Assembly: GCA_016201905.1 (NCBI GenBank) | Contig: JACQBQ010000015.1 | Span: 1-43,191, forward strand | Length of the DNA: 43,191 nt | Origin: Candidatus Melainabacteria bacterium | GTDB lineage: Bacteria > Cyanobacteriota > Vampirovibrionia > 2-02-FULL-35-15 | Direction: 5' to 3' | Shown: positions 25,444 through 43,142 of the stretch, in pieces | Layout of the letters: each line of letters begins with the position of its first letter | Position numbering within the stretch: position 1 is the first letter of the stretch | The notes under the pieces: generated by a model | Database searches by the model: none | Told to the model about the DNA's origin: nothing | Seen by the model: only the letters and a program-made list of their open reading frames with translations | Translations under genes and position numbers: made by a program

Positions 25444-26787
25444 TTACTTGCCTTGCTGACAGATATCAATTAATAACTTACAAGTTTCTTCAAAACTTGT
25501 AGTTTCATAAATACCCTGTTGTAAAAAAGAATCTATTACTGGTTTCAATAAAACTGCTTTATCAATTCTTGGATCTGAACCTTTTTCATATGCTCCAATG
25601 GCAATTAAGTCTTCTGCATTATTATAAGTTGCCATCATATTTCGCATAAAACCTGCTGCTTCCTGATGATCTTTATCAGCAAGGTCCGGGAAAAGTCTAC
25701 TCACACTATTTAAAACATCTACAGATGGATAGTGATTCCTTGCAGCAATTGTTCTAGAAAGAATTATATGCCCATCTAAAATACCACGTACAGCGTCTGC
25801 TATAGGCTCATTAAAATCATCACCTTCAACAAGCACAGTATAAATAGCTGTAATTGAACCTGATTTAGCTCTTCCTGCTCTTTCCAGTATTTTTGGCAAC
25901 ATTGCAAAGACTGATGGTGTATAACCTTTCATTGTAGGTGGCTCACCTACAGAAAGTCCTACATCCCTAGCTGACATTGCAAGTCTTGTAACAGAATCTG
26001 CCATAAGTAAAACATTTTTCCCTTGCTCTCGGAAATATTCAGCAATTGTCGTTGCAGTTAAAAGACACTTGACGCGCAGCATTGCTGGCTGGTCTGATGT
26101 AGCCACAATTACAACAGATTTTTTTAAGCCTTCTTCTCCTAAGCTAACTTCAATAAAATCTTGAACTTCTCTTCCTCTTTCTCCAACAAGAGCAATTACG
26201 TTTACATCAGCATCACCATATCTTGCAATCATGCCTAACGTGGTACTCTTTCCAACTCCAGAACCACTAAATATACCAATTCTTTGCCCTACACCTAAAG
26301 TTAAAAGCCCATCTATGACCCTAATACCAGTTGCAAAAACAGTATCTATTCTTGGACGTCCATAAGCTTCTGGCGGAGCAGCATCTACAGCTCTTGGGAC
26401 TAACGTACCTTCCAAATCTCTTCCATCAATTGGTTTTCCCAGTGCATCAACTACTCTTCCAAGTAAACCTTCCCCTGCAAAAATTTCAACATGCCTTCCA
26501 GACTGAACAATTTTACTTCCCTGGTGAACACCTCTTCCGTCTACCAGTAAAAGTAAAAGTGAAATTTCTCCTTTAAAGCCAACAACTTCAGCTGGTTTTA
26601 CATCGCCTTGATCAGTGATTACACTACATAACTCTCCAACCATTGCACCAGGAAGTCTGGCTTCTAAAAGCAACCCCACAACTTTATTTACATAGCCAGT
26701 CCACTTACGGGTTTCATTTTTAGCAAGCACATCTTGAACTGCTCTATTCAGGTCCTTTATATATTCATCATCAATTAGTTTTTCCAC
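25444..26787 (-). CDS. fliI: Flagellar / type III secretion ATPase (FliI/SctN)
   Basis: This is the hexameric ATPase that unfolds and hands export substrates to the flagellar or type III gate. Walker A SGSGVGKST lies at about 173-181, followed by ALVGERGREVQDFIE, Walker B VLLMADSVTRLAMSARD and the stretch VGEPPTMKGYTPSVFAMLPKILERAG, closest in my reading to flagellar FliI (as in Firmicutes). Length 447 aa. It starts with GTG preceded by GAGGAAT and lies 24 bp after flhA, so the two form an operon. No rod, ring, hook or FliH/FliJ gene is present. The sctV-sctN order is also seen in injectisomes, so that alternative stays open. Confidence 0.88.
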   Translation of the reverse strand: MEKLIDDEYIKDLNRAVQDVLAKNETRKWTGYVNKVVGLLLEARLPGAMVGELCSVITDQGDVKPAEVVGFKGEISLLLLLVDGRGVHQGSKIVQSGRHVEIFAGEGLLGRVVDALGKPIDGRDLEGTLVPRAVDAAPPEAYGRPRIDTVFATGIRVIDGLLTLGVGQRIGIFSGSGVGKSTTLGMIARYGDADVNVIALVGERGREVQDFIEVSLGEEGLKKSVVIVATSDQPAMLRVKCLLTATTIAEYFREQGKNVLLMADSVTRLAMSARDVGLSVGEPPTMKGYTPSVFAMLPKILERAGRAKSGSITAIYTVLVEGDDFNEPIADAVRGILDGHIILSRTIAARNHYPSVDVLNSVSRLFPDLADKDHQEAAGFMRNMMATYNNAEDLIAIGAYEKGSDPRIDKAVLLKPVIDSFLQQGIYETTSFEETCKLLIDICQQGK

Positions 26788-26811
26788 AAGAATTCCTCAA
26801 TCTTCAATTAC

Positions 26812-28908
26812 TTACGCTGCTGGTGCAGTAACCCCAGGCTGAGCACTTTCTGTCCCAATCGTTTCCAATACTTGAACATTAAAGTCTGGAGATAGCTCTG
26901 CATAAGAAAGAACATGTATATGTGGATCAAATTGTTCAAGTAATCTATACAACGGTAATCTTAATCCAGGACCACAAATTAAAACTGGTCTTCGCCCATA
27001 CCTTTCATTAATCTTTTTCGAGGAACGCGAAATCATTGTAACCAGTTGTTGTATTTGTTTTGGATCTAATATTAAAACTAAATTATTTTCGACACGCTGC
27101 AAAGATTCTTCCAGCTTACGTTCCCAGGTTGGGTGAAATGCTACTGAATATATTTGTTTTTCCGGCGTAGCAAATTCAAGGCAAATTTGCCTACCTAAAG
27201 TAATTCTAAGCTTTTCAGACAACAAGTCTGGATCTTTTATGCCAGTGCATAAATCTTCAAGTCTTTCTAAAAGATATTGAACATCACGAATAGAAACTCT
27301 TTCCTTTAAAAGATTTACAAAAACACGTCTTAAATCACCAATGTTAATCAGAGCCGGAACTAAACTTTCAACAACTTGAGAATCTTTTTGTTTTGCCTGT
27401 TCAAGTACTCTCTTTACATCAGCTTTAGTAAGAAGCTCATCAATATTCTTTCTTACAACTTCAGCTAGGTGAGCTGTGATTACTCTAACTGCAGGTGTTG
27501 CAGGATATTGCCAGTCAATTTGCTCCAGGTAATCAGGATCAATCCAATATGCAGGCTCCTGAAGGGCCGAATCCCATCCAGGCAAAGCACCAGGCGGTGG
27601 TTCAGAATATATCCTGTCCCAGTACTCCCTTAAAACAAGCATTCTATCTGGATATGCTTCACTTGAGGAAACAGTTGTATCTCTTATAACAATTCTATAT
27701 TCATTTGCATTTAAACTTGGAGCATCCATAATCCTCACTGATGGAAGAACATATCCAAGATTCAATGTAAGTTGATGTCTCAGTGAAGCAATTTCAGGAA
27801 CTAAGGTACCTTGTCTTCCTGGATCTGCAATATCAAGCAAATTTCTACCAACCCAGATCGCAAGATTATCTACTTCAAGCAATGAGTACATCATATCCGG
27901 ACTGCTTGGATTAACTTTTGGTTCAGATAAAGCCTGGTCTTCAGTAGATTTTTTATCTCTAGCCCGTTGTGCAAACACAAATGCAGCCATGCCACCTATA
28001 ATTACAGAAAGCGCCAGAAATGCAAAAGTTGGTAAGCCAGGAAAAAATGCAATACAAAATAAAAGCCCAGAAGCCAGTGCCAATGCATTTGGCCTGTTCA
28101 TTATCTGTGTACCAATATCCTGTCCTAAACTTTCTGCGCTAGATGTTGATCTGGTAACAATGATACCTGCAGCAATTGAAAGTATAAGTGCTGGAACCTG
28201 TGCAGACAGAGCATCTCCAACTGTTAGTATTGTGTACTTACCAGCAGCTTGTGCAAGATCTAAACCTTTCTGTGTAACCCCAATCGTAAGACCAGCAGTA
28301 ATATTTACAAGAGTTATAATAATACCCGCAATAGCGTCACCTTTTATAAATTTACTTGCACCATCCATTGCACCATAAAATGAAGACTCTCTTTCCAGAT
28401 CAGCTCTACGCTGCTTTGCCTGCTCACTGCTAGTTAAACCTGCATTAAAATCTGCATCGATAGACATCTGTTTCCCTGGCATTGCATCTAATGCAAACCT
28501 TGCAGATACTTCAGCAATTCTTTCGGCACCCTTAGTAACAACAATAAATTGAACTACTGTAATAATTATAAAAATAATAACACCAACAACTATATTTCCG
28601 CCTGCTACAAAATTTCCAAAAGCAGTAACAACTTCACCTGCATAACCATTTTCAAGTATGAGTCTTGAAACAGCGATGTTTAAAGACAAACGCAACAATG
28701 TAGTGATTAACAAAACAGAAGGCAAAACAGCATAGTCAAGAGGTCTTCCAATATATAGCGCAATGCCCAAGGTTACAATTGCAAAAGAGATATTAATAGC
28801 AAGCGCAATATCCATAAGCCATGTAGGCAATGGAACCAAAATTAAGATGAGTAGTCCGAATACTACTGATCCAACTATTATTTCACTTACTAAATGAGTT
28901 CTGTTCAT
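26812..28908 (-). CDS. flhA: Flagellar / type III export gate protein FlhA (FlhA/SctV)
   Basis: FlhA forms the nonameric inner-membrane export gate. The N-terminal half has about eight hydrophobic segments (residues 10 to about 315). The FHIPEP-family signature is clear: LLRLSLNIAVSRLIL, then VTKGAERIAEVSARFALDAMPGKQMSIDADFNAG. The C-terminal half (about 340-698) is the cytoplasmic ring domain, with DPGRQGTLVPEIASLRHQ and ISIRDVQYLLERLED-like segments. 698 aa is the normal length. It is followed directly by fliI. A hairpin lies 7 nt upstream of the start (28916-28936), and no clear Shine-Dalgarno is seen, only ATAAGAA. Confidence 0.92.
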   Translation of the reverse strand: MNRTHLVSEIIVGSVVFGLLILILVPLPTWLMDIALAINISFAIVTLGIALYIGRPLDYAVLPSVLLITTLLRLSLNIAVSRLILENGYAGEVVTAFGNFVAGGNIVVGVIIFIIITVVQFIVVTKGAERIAEVSARFALDAMPGKQMSIDADFNAGLTSSEQAKQRRADLERESSFYGAMDGASKFIKGDAIAGIIITLVNITAGLTIGVTQKGLDLAQAAGKYTILTVGDALSAQVPALILSIAAGIIVTRSTSSAESLGQDIGTQIMNRPNALALASGLLFCIAFFPGLPTFAFLALSVIIGGMAAFVFAQRARDKKSTEDQALSEPKVNPSSPDMMYSLLEVDNLAIWVGRNLLDIADPGRQGTLVPEIASLRHQLTLNLGYVLPSVRIMDAPSLNANEYRIVIRDTTVSSSEAYPDRMLVLREYWDRIYSEPPPGALPGWDSALQEPAYWIDPDYLEQIDWQYPATPAVRVITAHLAEVVRKNIDELLTKADVKRVLEQAKQKDSQVVESLVPALINIGDLRRVFVNLLKERVSIRDVQYLLERLEDLCTGIKDPDLLSEKLRITLGRQICLEFATPEKQIYSVAFHPTWERKLEESLQRVENNLVLILDPKQIQQLVTMISRSSKKINERYGRRPVLICGPGLRLPLYRLLEQFDPHIHVLSYAELSPDFNVQVLETIGTESAQPGVTAPAA

Positions 28909-38673: not shown

Positions 38674-39867
38674 ATGAATAAGATTTGTCTTCCAAAGGTA
38701 GTCAGTGTACTTATAAGTTTATTATTATTTTTAGTTTTAGCCAATTATACAAACCAGTATTTTCAAAAAGCTTATTCACAAGACGATCAATCACAAGATG
38801 ATCAACCTGCTTTAGATACTGAATGGAGAGATTCAACGATAATAGATGGTGATGGTTCTAGCACATCACCCACACCACTACCAACAGTAGATACTACTAT
38901 TACTTCAGATACTACTACTTCTTCTTCTGACTGTTCTATTTGTGACTGTAGTGCTACTAGTTCTCTAAGTGCAAGGTTATACAACAACAGCACTCCAGAG
39001 CTTGATAAGCTTAGGGCAGATAAAGGAATTAAAAAACTAAAATTAGGAAAAAAGGATGATTATGTCAAATCTTTTAAAGAATTAGCAGGCGGAAATTTTG
39101 AACTTGAGGTATATAGAAAGAATGAAAAAGTTATTAGATACCTCATTCTATGCGGGCAGCCTTGTCAGGTTGGACAAGCAAATAATGGTGGCTGCGGTGT
39201 ATGCAAAACTTGTGTAGCCAATGCAGGCACAACTGTTGGTACATGTATGGTATCGACAGGATCATCGTGTGCCCCTGGTCAAACAGATGGTGCAGGTGCT
39301 TGTATAGCTGGATTTGATTGCACCGTAAACAGCGCAGTAAACCCACCAACCTGTACATGTACACAGACCTGCAGAGTTGGCCCTAATGCTGTGCCGTGTA
39401 ATGGCTGTCAAAAGTGTAATCCTACTACTAGTGCGTGCGAAGCAATTGATGCAAACAATTGTGACGTGAATACGGTCCCAAATCCACCTGCAGGCCATGT
39501 AGGGTGTACTGCACCTGCAATCTGCAATCTTACATCAACAAATCCTAACATGCGATGTATGTGTGTAACTATAGTTGCCTGTATGGATACACCTGTAACA
39601 TATACGAGACAATACGATTCCAGCGATGGTACTTGCTGGCAAAATCGTGGTACACCTGCAGTACCTACCAATATAGCGAGAAAGTGTGATGCTACTACTG
39701 GTGCGCAACCTTGCAATGCCAATAATACTAGTCAAACTTGCAAAGATACCCCCAACCCCAGAGCAAGTGCCAACTGTTGGGTTGAAGATGTCCCCGTCCC
39801 CCCAAGCACAAACAAAAATGGCCGCTATATTCGTAAGTCATTTACAACTGGATGTGGCTGTAGTTAG
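38674..39867 (+). CDS. Secreted cysteine-rich protein of unknown function (397 aa)
   Basis: An N-terminal signal or anchor (VVSVLISLLLFLVLANYT, about 9-26) precedes an acidic, Gln/Asp-rich stretch, a Thr/Ser-rich stretch, and a short charged segment (about 105-160) that reads as a small alpha/beta domain. From about residue 155 to the end the sequence is rich in Cys, Gly, Pro and Asn, with CxxC-type clusters such as GGCGVCKTC, CNGCQKC and TCTQTC, suggesting many disulfides or metal sites. It may be a surface or matrix protein or a pilus-tip adhesin; I know no family. An AAGGAG Shine-Dalgarno lies about 11 nt upstream. The single gene is flanked by der (divergent) and the RNase H fusion. Confidence 0.78.
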   Translation: MNKICLPKVVSVLISLLLFLVLANYTNQYFQKAYSQDDQSQDDQPALDTEWRDSTIIDGDGSSTSPTPLPTVDTTITSDTTTSSSDCSICDCSATSSLSARLYNNSTPELDKLRADKGIKKLKLGKKDDYVKSFKELAGGNFELEVYRKNEKVIRYLILCGQPCQVGQANNGGCGVCKTCVANAGTTVGTCMVSTGSSCAPGQTDGAGACIAGFDCTVNSAVNPPTCTCTQTCRVGPNAVPCNGCQKCNPTTSACEAIDANNCDVNTVPNPPAGHVGCTAPAICNLTSTNPNMRCMCVTIVACMDTPVTYTRQYDSSDGTCWQNRGTPAVPTNIARKCDATTGAQPCNANNTSQTCKDTPNPRASANCWVEDVPVPPSTNKNGRYIRKSFTTGCGCS

Positions 39868-39944: not shown

Positions 39945-41045
39945 ATGTTTGTCATTCTTAAGTACAAGGATAAAGAGTACAAAGCTAATATCATTTTTTG
40001 GGATCGTGATTCATTTTTTATTGATTTTAATTACTGGTCACGCTTTGTAGGTTCAATGGCTCAAAAGATTGCAGAACACACCACAGACAATTGGAATAAA
40101 TTTAACCTTGTCAGAACAGAAGTAATTAAAGCTCTTGGGACCAATCTGGACACAGGAAAACTTCATTTATCCAGTTCAATTAATTTCTTACCTTTAAACA
40201 TACTACCATCACTACTTACTAGCAGTTTAAAAAACCTATTACAAGACAAAAATCCTGATGATATAAACAATTTATTTCAAGAATTGTTGATGAAAGTTTC
40301 TCATGAAAGTCAACAATACTTAAAAGATTCAATAACAGTCAACAATCTGGAAACAATTAAACAAATAAACAAAAAAGCAAAGCAAGTTCTTATTACCAAT
40401 GACTCAAAAGAAAACAATGATCTTTTTATAAAAGAAGCAGGATTAGAGAATTGCTTTCATGAGGTTCATGCACAAACAAATAAAGAACAGCTGGTTGATT
40501 TTTTAAAAAAAGATGACTCTATCTTTTTAACAGGAAACCCCTTTTTAGTAAACTCCTATCTAAAAAGAGGAATTAAAAACATTCTAACCATAGAAGAAAT
40601 AAAACTGATTTCTTTCAATAAGGCAACAGATAATGAATTAATCACGATTAACATAGATGGTGCATCAAAAGGAAACCCTGGACCTGCATCCATTGGAATG
40701 GTTTTTTATAAAGACAAACAAATAATTAATGAAGCTTCAGAATTTATTGGAATTAAAACAAACAACTTTGCAGAGTATACTGCACTTATAAGAGCTCTGG
40801 AAATAAGCCTGGATAAAGGTTTTAATAATATTATGATTAAATCTGACAGCGAGCTTGTCGTAAATCAAATAAACAAAACCTATAAAGTAAAAGATTCTGA
40901 CATAAAAGATCTTTTTGATAAAGCATATTCATTGATTGAAAAACTTAATTCTTTTAAAATTATCCATGTACCAAGAGAAGAAAATTTAAAAGCAGATAAA
41001 TTGGCTAATAATGCTTTAAAAAACAATTTACCTATATCTCAATAG
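39945..41045 (+). CDS. HAD-like domain fused to ribonuclease HI
   Basis: The C-terminal half (about 230-360) is a complete RNase HI: INIDGASKGNPGPA (Asp238), NFAEYTALIRAL (Glu277), IKSDSELVVNQI (Asp301) and LKADKLANNAL (Asp351). It would cleave RNA in RNA-DNA hybrids. The N-terminal half (about 1-215) looks like a haloacid-dehalogenase fold: motif I FWDRDSFFIDF (Asp20, Asp22), motif II VLITND (Thr151) and a Lys180 candidate, with a helical cap between. The final acidic motif is absent (FLTGNPF), so phosphatase activity is doubtful. Mycobacterial RNase HI is fused to a different phosphatase (CobC type). The start is set by a leaderless -10 box. The 3' end overlaps the convergent dehydratase gene by 14 bp. 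Confidence 0.8.
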   Translation: MFVILKYKDKEYKANIIFWDRDSFFIDFNYWSRFVGSMAQKIAEHTTDNWNKFNLVRTEVIKALGTNLDTGKLHLSSSINFLPLNILPSLLTSSLKNLLQDKNPDDINNLFQELLMKVSHESQQYLKDSITVNNLETIKQINKKAKQVLITNDSKENNDLFIKEAGLENCFHEVHAQTNKEQLVDFLKKDDSIFLTGNPFLVNSYLKRGIKNILTIEEIKLISFNKATDNELITINIDGASKGNPGPASIGMVFYKDKQIINEASEFIGIKTNNFAEYTALIRALEISLDKGFNNIMIKSDSELVVNQINKTYKVKDSDIKDLFDKAYSLIEKLNSFKIIHVPREENLKADKLANNALKNNLPISQ

Positions 41046-41418
41046 CCGCGCAAGCATTTGTAATAATATGCTCGTTTTTTTGATTAGTGGCTAAAAGATC
41101 AATTGTTGCTAAATTATTTTCAATAGCTGTAACTTTTCCGCTAACCGTTAGCTTGTCATTTGGCCTAACCATTCCTTTAAACCTAGCTTTTATTTTTTTT
41201 AATTTTTCTGGATCTTTATTATTCATAACTGCACGATAGACATAAGCCATGGTACAAAGTCCATGTAAAATGACCCCACCAAGGCCTACAGCCTTTGCAA
41301 AATCATTGTCAATGTGAATCGGATTAAAATCTCCTGATGCGCCTGCATAATAGCAAGGTCTATATTTATCAACCTCTATTTGAAAAGGAGTAATCTCTTG
41401 ATTGATTTTATAAGCCAT
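41032..41418 (-). CDS. MaoC-like (R)-hydroxyacyl dehydratase, catalytic HadB type
   Basis: This single hot-dog domain has the full dehydratase dyad Asp30 and His35 in GASGDFNPIHIDNDFAKAVGLGGVILHGLCTMAYVYRAV, as in HadB and R-specific enoyl hydratases (PhaJ). It would dehydrate (3R)-hydroxyacyl-ACP or -CoA, probably with the non-catalytic half at 36535-36975. Length 128 aa. The ATG directly follows the stop codon of the sigma-region-4/PstS fusion gene, and its AAGGAG Shine-Dalgarno lies inside that gene, so the two are translationally coupled. Why a lipid enzyme is coupled to a phosphate-sensor-like protein is unclear. Confidence 0.85.
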   Translation of the reverse strand: MAYKINQEITPFQIEVDKYRPCYYAGASGDFNPIHIDNDFAKAVGLGGVILHGLCTMAYVYRAVMNNKDPEKLKKIKARFKGMVRPNDKLTVSGKVTAIENNLATIDLLATNQKNEHIITNACAAIEI

Positions 41419-42834
41419 CTAGTCTCCTTCACTAACAACAGGAATTAATCCTGAATACCGAACGATTTCCTGTCCTTTACGTGTCAGTACCCAGCCAATA
41501 AAATCCTGAACTTTTTTTGGAGCATCTGCCAAGGTAATAAAGTATAAATAATGCGCCAATGGATAGTCACCATACCGTATAGCTTGTTCATTTAATTTTT
41601 GCTCTATAAAGGGAGAAACACTATTATTAGAAGAAGTATAATTTTTAATTTTAACATATTTTACTTCCTGATTATCCCATGGATAGTTTGTAGAGTTTAT
41701 ATAACCTATTGCACCTTCATTTTCAGAAATAAATTTTAATATTTCCTGATTTGAATTTTTTCTTGTAACAGTGCCAGGAAAATCATTGCCTTCTAATATT
41801 CTATTTATTACAAAGTCATTAGTTCCGCTGCCCTTTTCCCTGACTACAGGGATAACAGGCTTGGTAAAGCTGTTAATTGTCTGCCAGCTTTTAACTCCAC
41901 CATTAAAAATATCTTCTAAATCATCCAGACTAATCTCTTCAGTTGGGTTTTTCTTATTCACAACAATAATAAGTGCATCAAGCGCTACTCTGTTCTCAGC
42001 AAGTTCTTTGCCTGCTTCAGTTGCTTTTTTCTGATCCAAAAAGCTAAGCGGCCTGCTGGAATTAGCAATATCAACATTTCCTTTAATCAAAGCACTTATT
42101 CCAAGCTCAGAATCAGAAGAAACTAAGCCTAAATGATATTTGGGATATTCTATACTAAACGTGTTTTCCCATCTTCTAGATAAAGCTAATAAGCTTGTTG
42201 AACCTGAGATTTTTATGTTTCTTGGATCGCTTACTGAGAGATTTTTTCTACTGCCAGGTATAACCTTACTTACAACTTCATTAGTTAAAACTTGCTCCTG
42301 AACAAAATCATTTGCTTCTCTCATAAGCTGGTTAAAGAGTGGCATCTGACTTGAAAACAATTTTTGTAGGAAATAGTAAGTCGTAACTAAAATCAGGATA
42401 AAAACTATTATGCCAACTAAACCAGGTATTACTGATGCTTTACTTGTACTGTTTTTGGGCACATCATAAACTCGTTTCTGATTAGGTGTCTTAGCTTCTG
42501 TAAGCTTTATTACATTATCAATCTTTGTAGACTTTAATGCACCTGTTTTAATATTTTTTTTAATATTTTCTATTCCACGTAAAAGAATTTGAATCACTTC
42601 TTCTTTTGGCTTAGAGAGCTTTTGTGCTATTTTGTCACTTGTAAGGTTTTGGAAATATCTAAGATCTAAGATTTCTTGTTCTTGCTTTGGAAGTAACGTT
42701 ATTGCTTTTTTAATATCACCTTTTAATTTCTGGATTTCATTTATTACATCCTTGCTAAATTTTTCCTGTGGTTTAAAGTTTAAGATTATTTCAAGTGATT
42801 TTTCATTTAAATCTTCATAAGACCTAATCTGCAT
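41419..42834 (-). CDS. Sigma region 4-like HTH, membrane helix and PstS-like phosphate-binding domain in one protein
   Basis: Residues about 45-95 match sigma-70 region 4: LLPKQEQEILDLRYFQNLTSDKIAQKLSKPKEEVIQILLRGIENIKKN, which binds DNA in sigma factors. A polar linker follows, then a single membrane helix at about 136-158 (IPGLVGIIVFILILVTTYYFL). Residues about 205-470 form a PstS-type periplasmic binding protein: ISGSTSLLAL, DIANSSRPLS and VREKGSGTNDFV are the phosphate-contacting loops, with GAIGYINSTN and a C-terminal DAPKKVQDFIGWVLTRKGQEIV. The topology implied is DNA-binding domain inside, ligand domain outside. I infer a ToxR-like one-component regulator that senses phosphate or a similar anion. 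No pst transporter or phoBR is present in the window. The dehydratase gene is coupled downstream. Confidence 0.82.
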   Translation of the reverse strand: MQIRSYEDLNEKSLEIILNFKPQEKFSKDVINEIQKLKGDIKKAITLLPKQEQEILDLRYFQNLTSDKIAQKLSKPKEEVIQILLRGIENIKKNIKTGALKSTKIDNVIKLTEAKTPNQKRVYDVPKNSTSKASVIPGLVGIIVFILILVTTYYFLQKLFSSQMPLFNQLMREANDFVQEQVLTNEVVSKVIPGSRKNLSVSDPRNIKISGSTSLLALSRRWENTFSIEYPKYHLGLVSSDSELGISALIKGNVDIANSSRPLSFLDQKKATEAGKELAENRVALDALIIVVNKKNPTEEISLDDLEDIFNGGVKSWQTINSFTKPVIPVVREKGSGTNDFVINRILEGNDFPGTVTRKNSNQEILKFISENEGAIGYINSTNYPWDNQEVKYVKIKNYTSSNNSVSPFIEQKLNEQAIRYGDYPLAHYLYFITLADAPKKVQDFIGWVLTRKGQEIVRYSGLIPVVSEGD

Positions 42835-42947: not shown

Positions 42948-43142
42948 TTAAATCTGTCCAAGATTTTGTAGTTTTGGTATTTCTTTCTGTCTTATAAAAG
43001 CAAGTTTATGTGTTTGGTTCAGTTGATAGCATGACTGACATGTAAGTTCTACTAATAAGTCAATTGTTTTTTCCGAAGCAATTTGTGACCATTCTTCTTC
43101 ATAATAATTTTCTATTTGTTTTCTATTTATTACGGTAGCCAT
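42948..43142 (-). CDS. Possible small protein (64 aa), unknown
   Basis: A short frame with an AGGAAA about 11 nt before the ATG. It is polar and helical with two cysteines (TCQSCYQL) and matches no family I know. It lies upstream of the sensor-regulator gene on the same strand, 113 bp away, with a repeat fragment between. It may be real or a chance frame. Confidence 0.4.
   Translation of the reverse strand: MATVINRKQIENYYEEEWSQIASEKTIDLLVELTCQSCYQLNQTHKLAFIRQKEIPKLQNLGQI

Follow-up and report, generated by a model that had tools for sequence, protein, structure and literature searches.

A conserved transmembrane fusion of a sigma-4-like domain to a PstS-type domain in Melainabacteria, possibly a membrane-anchored sigma mimic

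The window analysed in this study, by which we mean the full 43,191-nt stretch of DNA, carries on its minus strand a single open reading frame that joins a sigma-4-like domain to a PstS-type domain through one membrane helix. Throughout, family 1 (f1) is the family of the window genome, and family 2 (f4) is a second family of the same class. The material consists of sequences and predicted structures from metagenome-assembled genomes. The locus is laid out as follows:

41419..42834, minus strand: fusion gene of 471 aa with an ATG start, encoding a sigma linker helix and sigma-4-like domain, one membrane helix and a PstS-type domain
42538..42822, minus strand: cytoplasmic domain (residues 5-99), made of the linker helix (8-22) and the sigma-4-like helices
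42565..42609, minus strand: recognition-helix segment (residues 76-90), degenerate compared with that of the putative parental sigma (pairwise identity 0.30 versus 0.93)
42361..42432, minus strand: single membrane helix (residues about 135-158), from hydropathy and the predicted model
41440..42225, minus strand: PstS-type (PBP_like_2) outer domain (residues 204-465), with anion-binding loops at 211-214, 240-245, 259-262 and 332-338
42948..43142, minus strand: small ORF of about 62-64 aa, directly upstream of the fusion and co-oriented with it in 11/11 family-1 genomes
41032..41418, minus strand: presumably a MaoC/hotdog-like dehydratase gene, abutting the fusion stop and conserved as a family-1 neighbour

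Both halves of the protein are recognised by profiles. The Pfam model Sigma70_r4 (PF04545) matches residues 47-93 above its cut-off (E=7e-8, and E=7e-9 with the N-terminal part alone), and PBP_like_2 (PF12849) matches residues 204-452 (E=6e-34). In NCBIfam, ptsS_2 (TIGR02136) reaches E=1.6e-46, yet remains under its curated cut-off. The outer domain also matches phosphate-binding proteins of the PDB, with E down to 6e-16 (e.g. PDB 4gd5 and 9l8j), and the loops GSTS, SSRPLS and REKGSGT that had been read in it are all present. Only one hydrophobic stretch was found (135-155, mean hydropathy 2.4, versus 0.7 for the runner-up), and the N-terminus is predicted to lie inside because the net charge is +4 before the helix versus +1 after it. 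Neither a sigma-2 domain nor a receiver domain was matched in Pfam or NCBIfam, and only about 130 residues precede the membrane helix. Structure prediction, one of the checks that the preliminary description had proposed, was applied to residues 1-110 and to the full-length protein, and led from the inner half to sigma factors and from the outer half to PstS-type structures. AlphaFold predicted five helices for residues 1-110 (mean pLDDT 84), and nearly all the top Foldseek matches listed for this segment were sigma factors, many of them in sigma/anti-sigma complexes, at E about 0.01 and probability 1.00 for a query that is a small helical domain. The full-length model reached moderate quality (mean pLDDT 68), and its outer domain clearly matched PstS-type proteins of solved structure, with E from 1e-17 to 1e-19. 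With profile matches in both halves, the architecture first proposed, a region-4 helix-turn-helix (HTH), one membrane helix and a PstS-type domain, is borne out; the predicted N-in single-pass topology and the likely use as a one-protein transmembrane sensor are likewise supported.

A search of 97 relatives recovered the fusion in 11/11 family-1 genomes, at 43-58% identity, with one copy (G008) cut by a contig end. The named matches are 'Candidatus Melainabacteria' and 'Candidatus Caenarcanales' metagenome-assembled genomes, several of them from groundwater, and we infer that family 1 belongs to Caenarcaniphilales, Melainabacteria. In all relatives the protein is a single ORF with the cytoplasmic domain and the membrane helix, not a separate secreted protein, and none is split into two genes at the fusion point, the outcome that the preliminary description had named as pointing to a chimeric assembly. 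Since every family-1 genome carries the same fusion and no relative is split, a chimeric assembly or a frame artefact is ruled out, and we conclude that the sigma-4/membrane/PstS-type fusion is confirmed as real. The same architecture was sought more widely, again as proposed, and homologues were present in eight family-2 genomes (473-492 aa, same layout, two of them cut by contig ends). Profile-profile comparison of the family-1 and family-2 fusions gave E=5e-50 for the whole proteins and E=4e-6 when the N-terminal domains were compared by themselves. In a tree of the binding domain, the fusions of both families grouped together to the exclusion of every PstS protein sampled (support 100/98). 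Of 289 genomes searched in the class, only those of family 1 yielded the family-1 N-domain in fused form, and among 386 genomes of the phylum, the family-2-type N-domain was convincing only in family 2. The simplest reading would be a single fusion that predates the split of the two families, with transfer as the alternative.

Gene order around the fusion is conserved in family 1, where the 62-aa ORF and the fusion are followed by a presumably MaoC-like gene, an RNase H-domain gene and a GTPase gene that is presumably Der-like. The neighbourhood differs in family 2, in which most fusions adjoin a presumably dnaN-like gene. In the neighbourhoods of the relatives, the fusion never adjoins pst genes. 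The 62-aa ORF, a candidate partner or operon member of the fusion, matched nothing in Pfam and nothing convincingly in NCBIfam, and was not found in 49 other relatives; by eye it bears a loose likeness to NepR, to which we give no weight. Upstream of it, past the end of the window, the family-1 loci (L033, L034, L036 and others) hold a conserved cluster of small proteins of 88 aa, 153 aa (with a glycine-rich stretch) and about 103-140 aa, encoded on the fusion's strand throughout and with no convincing family matches. A search upstream of the locus and its neighbours for a sigma-28-like promoter gave nothing above shuffles. A role in anti-phage defence was considered and set aside, as PADLOC returned no match. 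Elsewhere in the window, positions 38674-39867 hold a secreted-looking, cysteine-rich ORF of 397 aa that matches no Pfam model and lacks a counterpart in relatives at this position.

In a profile search of nine sigma factors of the window genome, the closest to the N-domain of the fusion was a 258-aa FliA/WhiG-like protein (45 bits), with a match that spans N-domain positions 7-97, thus the linker helix and sigma-4; the remaining sigmas scored at most 28 bits, over sigma-4 only. In family 1, the gene for this FliA/WhiG-like sigma lies immediately downstream of flhB. Because the match covers the linker helix as well as sigma-4, the best explanation for the inner half is an origin from the C-terminal end of the flhB-linked sigma, without sigma-2. 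The recognition core at positions 76-83 (TPSRVSHM in the sigma, and nearly the same in family 2) has a pairwise identity of 0.98 among family-1 orthologues of the sigma versus 0.33 among the fusions of the same genomes. For the linker helix (8-22), the corresponding identities are 0.74 (sigma) and 0.71 (fusion), and no other inner segment of the fusion is as well kept. When circular shifts along the domain served as the control, 3/91 matched the recognition-helix contrast and 0/91 the linker contrast, counts that are not strict probabilities since the shifts overlap. The sigma-4 core residues L48, R59, F61, L64 and I69 are invariant in the family-1 fusions, and the net charge of the family-1 N-domain ranges from -1 to +6. 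In family 2, the HTH no longer scores in Pfam, and the linker and membrane layout is retained. Reading a conserved site should preserve the reading helix; the fusion instead keeps the would-be protein-contact parts, and its reading helix is scrambled where that of the putative parental sigma is almost invariant, so that direct DNA readout by the inner domain appears disfavoured. The preliminary description had phosphate status carried straight to DNA, a proposal against which both the unconserved recognition helix of the fusion orthologues and the failure of Pfam to recognise the family-2 HTH argue. Its other suggestion, an anti-sigma-like or decoy protein, fits better than the direct DNA route on sequence grounds.

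On the outer side, residues G211, S212, S214, S240, S242, S259, S260, R261, P262, R332, G335, S336, G337 and T338 are invariant in the 11 family-1 sequences, whose phosphate-loop residues align with those of solved PstS proteins. Phosphate binding by this domain appears plausible. All family-2 copies have lost the Arg of REKGSGT, and the phosphate-loop residues are partly lost there; in that family the ligand may differ or be gone. PhoU is present in 11/11 family-1 genomes, PstB in 10/11 and PstC in 10/11. In the family-2 genomes, none of PstC, PstB and PhoU was found and the fusion is kept. Whether the fusion tracks pst/pho genes, a check that the preliminary description had proposed, thus has a mixed answer: family 1 has PhoU and mostly PstB and PstCA, and family 2 has the fusion without PstC, PstB or PhoU. 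In the window genome, PstB is present and PstC was not found; at the syntenic spot, next to atpG and a CBS gene, the contig ends about 360 bases away, and no pstA remnant is seen.

Several known systems resemble the fusion in part. PstS shares with the outer domain its fold and three anion-binding loops, but the fusion is membrane-anchored, carries a cytoplasmic sigma-like domain, scores under the TIGR02136 cut-off and lies away from pst genes. The flhB-linked sigma is homologous to it over positions 7-97, through the linker helix and sigma-4, whereas the fusion is membrane-bound and has neither sigma-2 nor the promoter-reading TPSRVSHM residues. Membrane anti-sigma factors of the RseA type, a comparison drawn in part from PMC4598750, are likewise single-pass and could relay a periplasmic signal to a sigma factor, but the inner domain of the fusion resembles a sigma, not an anti-sigma. 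Alongside these stands PhyR, the sigma mimic of the alphaproteobacterial general stress response. This soluble protein sets EcfG free by binding NepR (PMC4598750). In PhyR as in the fusion, a sensory input domain is coupled to a sigma-like part that does not itself serve as a sigma factor, and the fusion shows one trait of such mimics, a sigma-like domain without conserved DNA-reading residues. By contrast, PhyR is soluble, combines sigma-2-like and sigma-4-like parts with a receiver domain, and has a known partner in NepR. The analogy is one of working principle only, since the fusion, with no receiver domain and no sigma-2-like part, is no member of the PhyR family.

Our preferred reading, which we hold tentatively as a good possibility that falls short of probable, is that of a single-pass inner-membrane sensor whose sigma-like inner part answers through protein contacts. 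When the PstS-type outer domain takes up or releases an anion in the periplasm, with phosphate as the simplest candidate, the shape or the oligomeric state of the fusion would change, and the inner part would respond by protein contact, not by reading DNA, mimicking the flhB-linked sigma toward one of that sigma's partners. The partner could be an anti-sigma factor that the fusion titrates in the way PhyR titrates NepR, or the flap of core polymerase, which would be competed for or held at the membrane. In either case, the target would be the regulon of the flhB-linked, probably flagellar, sigma. A protein-contact output is favoured because the linker helix is best kept, the reading helix is degenerate and the HTH likeness is lost in family 2; the N-domain net charge, no higher than +6, was counted for it and against DNA binding, and the sigma/anti-sigma complexes among the Foldseek neighbours were counted for a sigma mimic. 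HTH proteins with diverged binding sites also vary in the recognition helix, and this, together with the 3/91 shifts, counts against the sigma-mimic reading. So do the absence of a clear FlgM (a search of family 1 for classical FlgM gave weak matches only), of a family match for the 62-aa neighbour and of a sigma-28-type promoter, and the missing sigma-2-like part counts against a mimic of the PhyR type. The more specific proposal, that a sigma mimic with a periplasmic phosphate sensor switches the flhB-linked FliA/WhiG-like sigma on or off by titrating its regulator, seems to us somewhat unlikely.

Alternatively, gain or loss of phosphate at the outer domain might cause the inner domain itself to bind DNA, in the manner of regulators of the ToxR/CadC type, which share with the fusion an N-in single-pass layout, a cytoplasmic HTH and a periplasmic sensory domain. 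The predicted topology and the intact predicted HTH fold in family 1 agree with this, and transmembrane regulators with HTH domains are common (PMC10269533). The same census defines a transmembrane transcription regulator by a membrane helix plus a DNA-binding domain; the fusion has both as predictions and would count as one, under a definition that does not test DNA binding. Its HTH, however, is apparently sigma-4-derived with a degenerate reading helix, and its outer domain has a PstS fold, unlike those regulators. Moreover, few inner segments vary more between fusion orthologues than the recognition helix, in contrast to the sigma, the inner domain is not strongly basic, and family 2 has lost a recognisable HTH yet keeps the rest of the protein, all of which leaves direct DNA binding unlikely. 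The inner domain could also, in line with the decoy idea of the preliminary description, bind the beta flap of core RNA polymerase with no anti-sigma partner involved, retaining the enzyme at the membrane or blocking sigma-4. The sigma-4/flap interface is large (PMC4598750) and the sigma-4 core residues are kept, but the best-kept segment is the linker helix and not the region 4.1/4.2 surface, and we regard this explanation, hard to tell from a sigma mimic by sequence alone, as very improbable.

A different possibility is that the fusion is a membrane-tethered substrate-binding protein for Pst, with an inner domain that either anchors it or signals to PhoU/Pst. At 7/9 readable family-1 pstCA loci (L117-L124), pstC has no PstS gene next to it. 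The genomes concerned do have PstB and PhoU, and their only PBP_like_2 proteins are the fusion and one secreted protein. In the window genome, the secreted PBP_like_2 gene is followed by two Peripla_BP_6 genes (L052:10246-13475), which suggests a system different from Pst. Because of these loci and this arrangement, the fusion might also serve Pst, and the universal PhoU and invariant phosphate loops of family 1 point the same way. On the other hand, G002 and G004 retain the fusion despite having PstS beside pstCA, family-2 fusions exist without PstC, PstB or PhoU, and pst genes are never neighbours; we find a tethered Pst component decidedly unlikely. Family 2 (L091-L094) has a large binding protein, over 600 aa, encoded directly downstream of another gene. 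In L092, this protein joins PBP_like_2 to Peripla_BP_6, and the preceding gene has a FliM/FliN C-terminal domain. Since the two domains are fused in L092 and are separate neighbours in the window genome, they may form an old functional unit.

In the open-access literature searched, we found no paper that describes a sigma-4/PstS-type fusion architecture, and the comparisons made here suggest that the fusion is a conserved transmembrane regulator of new architecture. To sense external phosphate, most bacteria rely on a set of proteins: PstSCAB, PhoU, PhoR and PhoB. If the membrane-anchored sigma mimic holds true, a one-protein route built with a retired piece of sigma factor would be a new connection from the outside to transcription. 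Sigma mimicry, known from the soluble PhyR, would then have arisen independently in a membrane protein, and its transmembrane form would be a signalling route of which we found no description in the open-access literature. The architecture is conserved, common to two families of the class and small enough for chimera tests in E. coli.

Two further observations concern the window genome. A 1026-aa sigma-70-like protein (L090:437-3514) carries roughly 700 residues ahead of its sigma regions. Within the window, positions 25444-28908 hold FliI-like and FlhA-like export genes, for which flagellar models score best, yet under their curated cut-offs.
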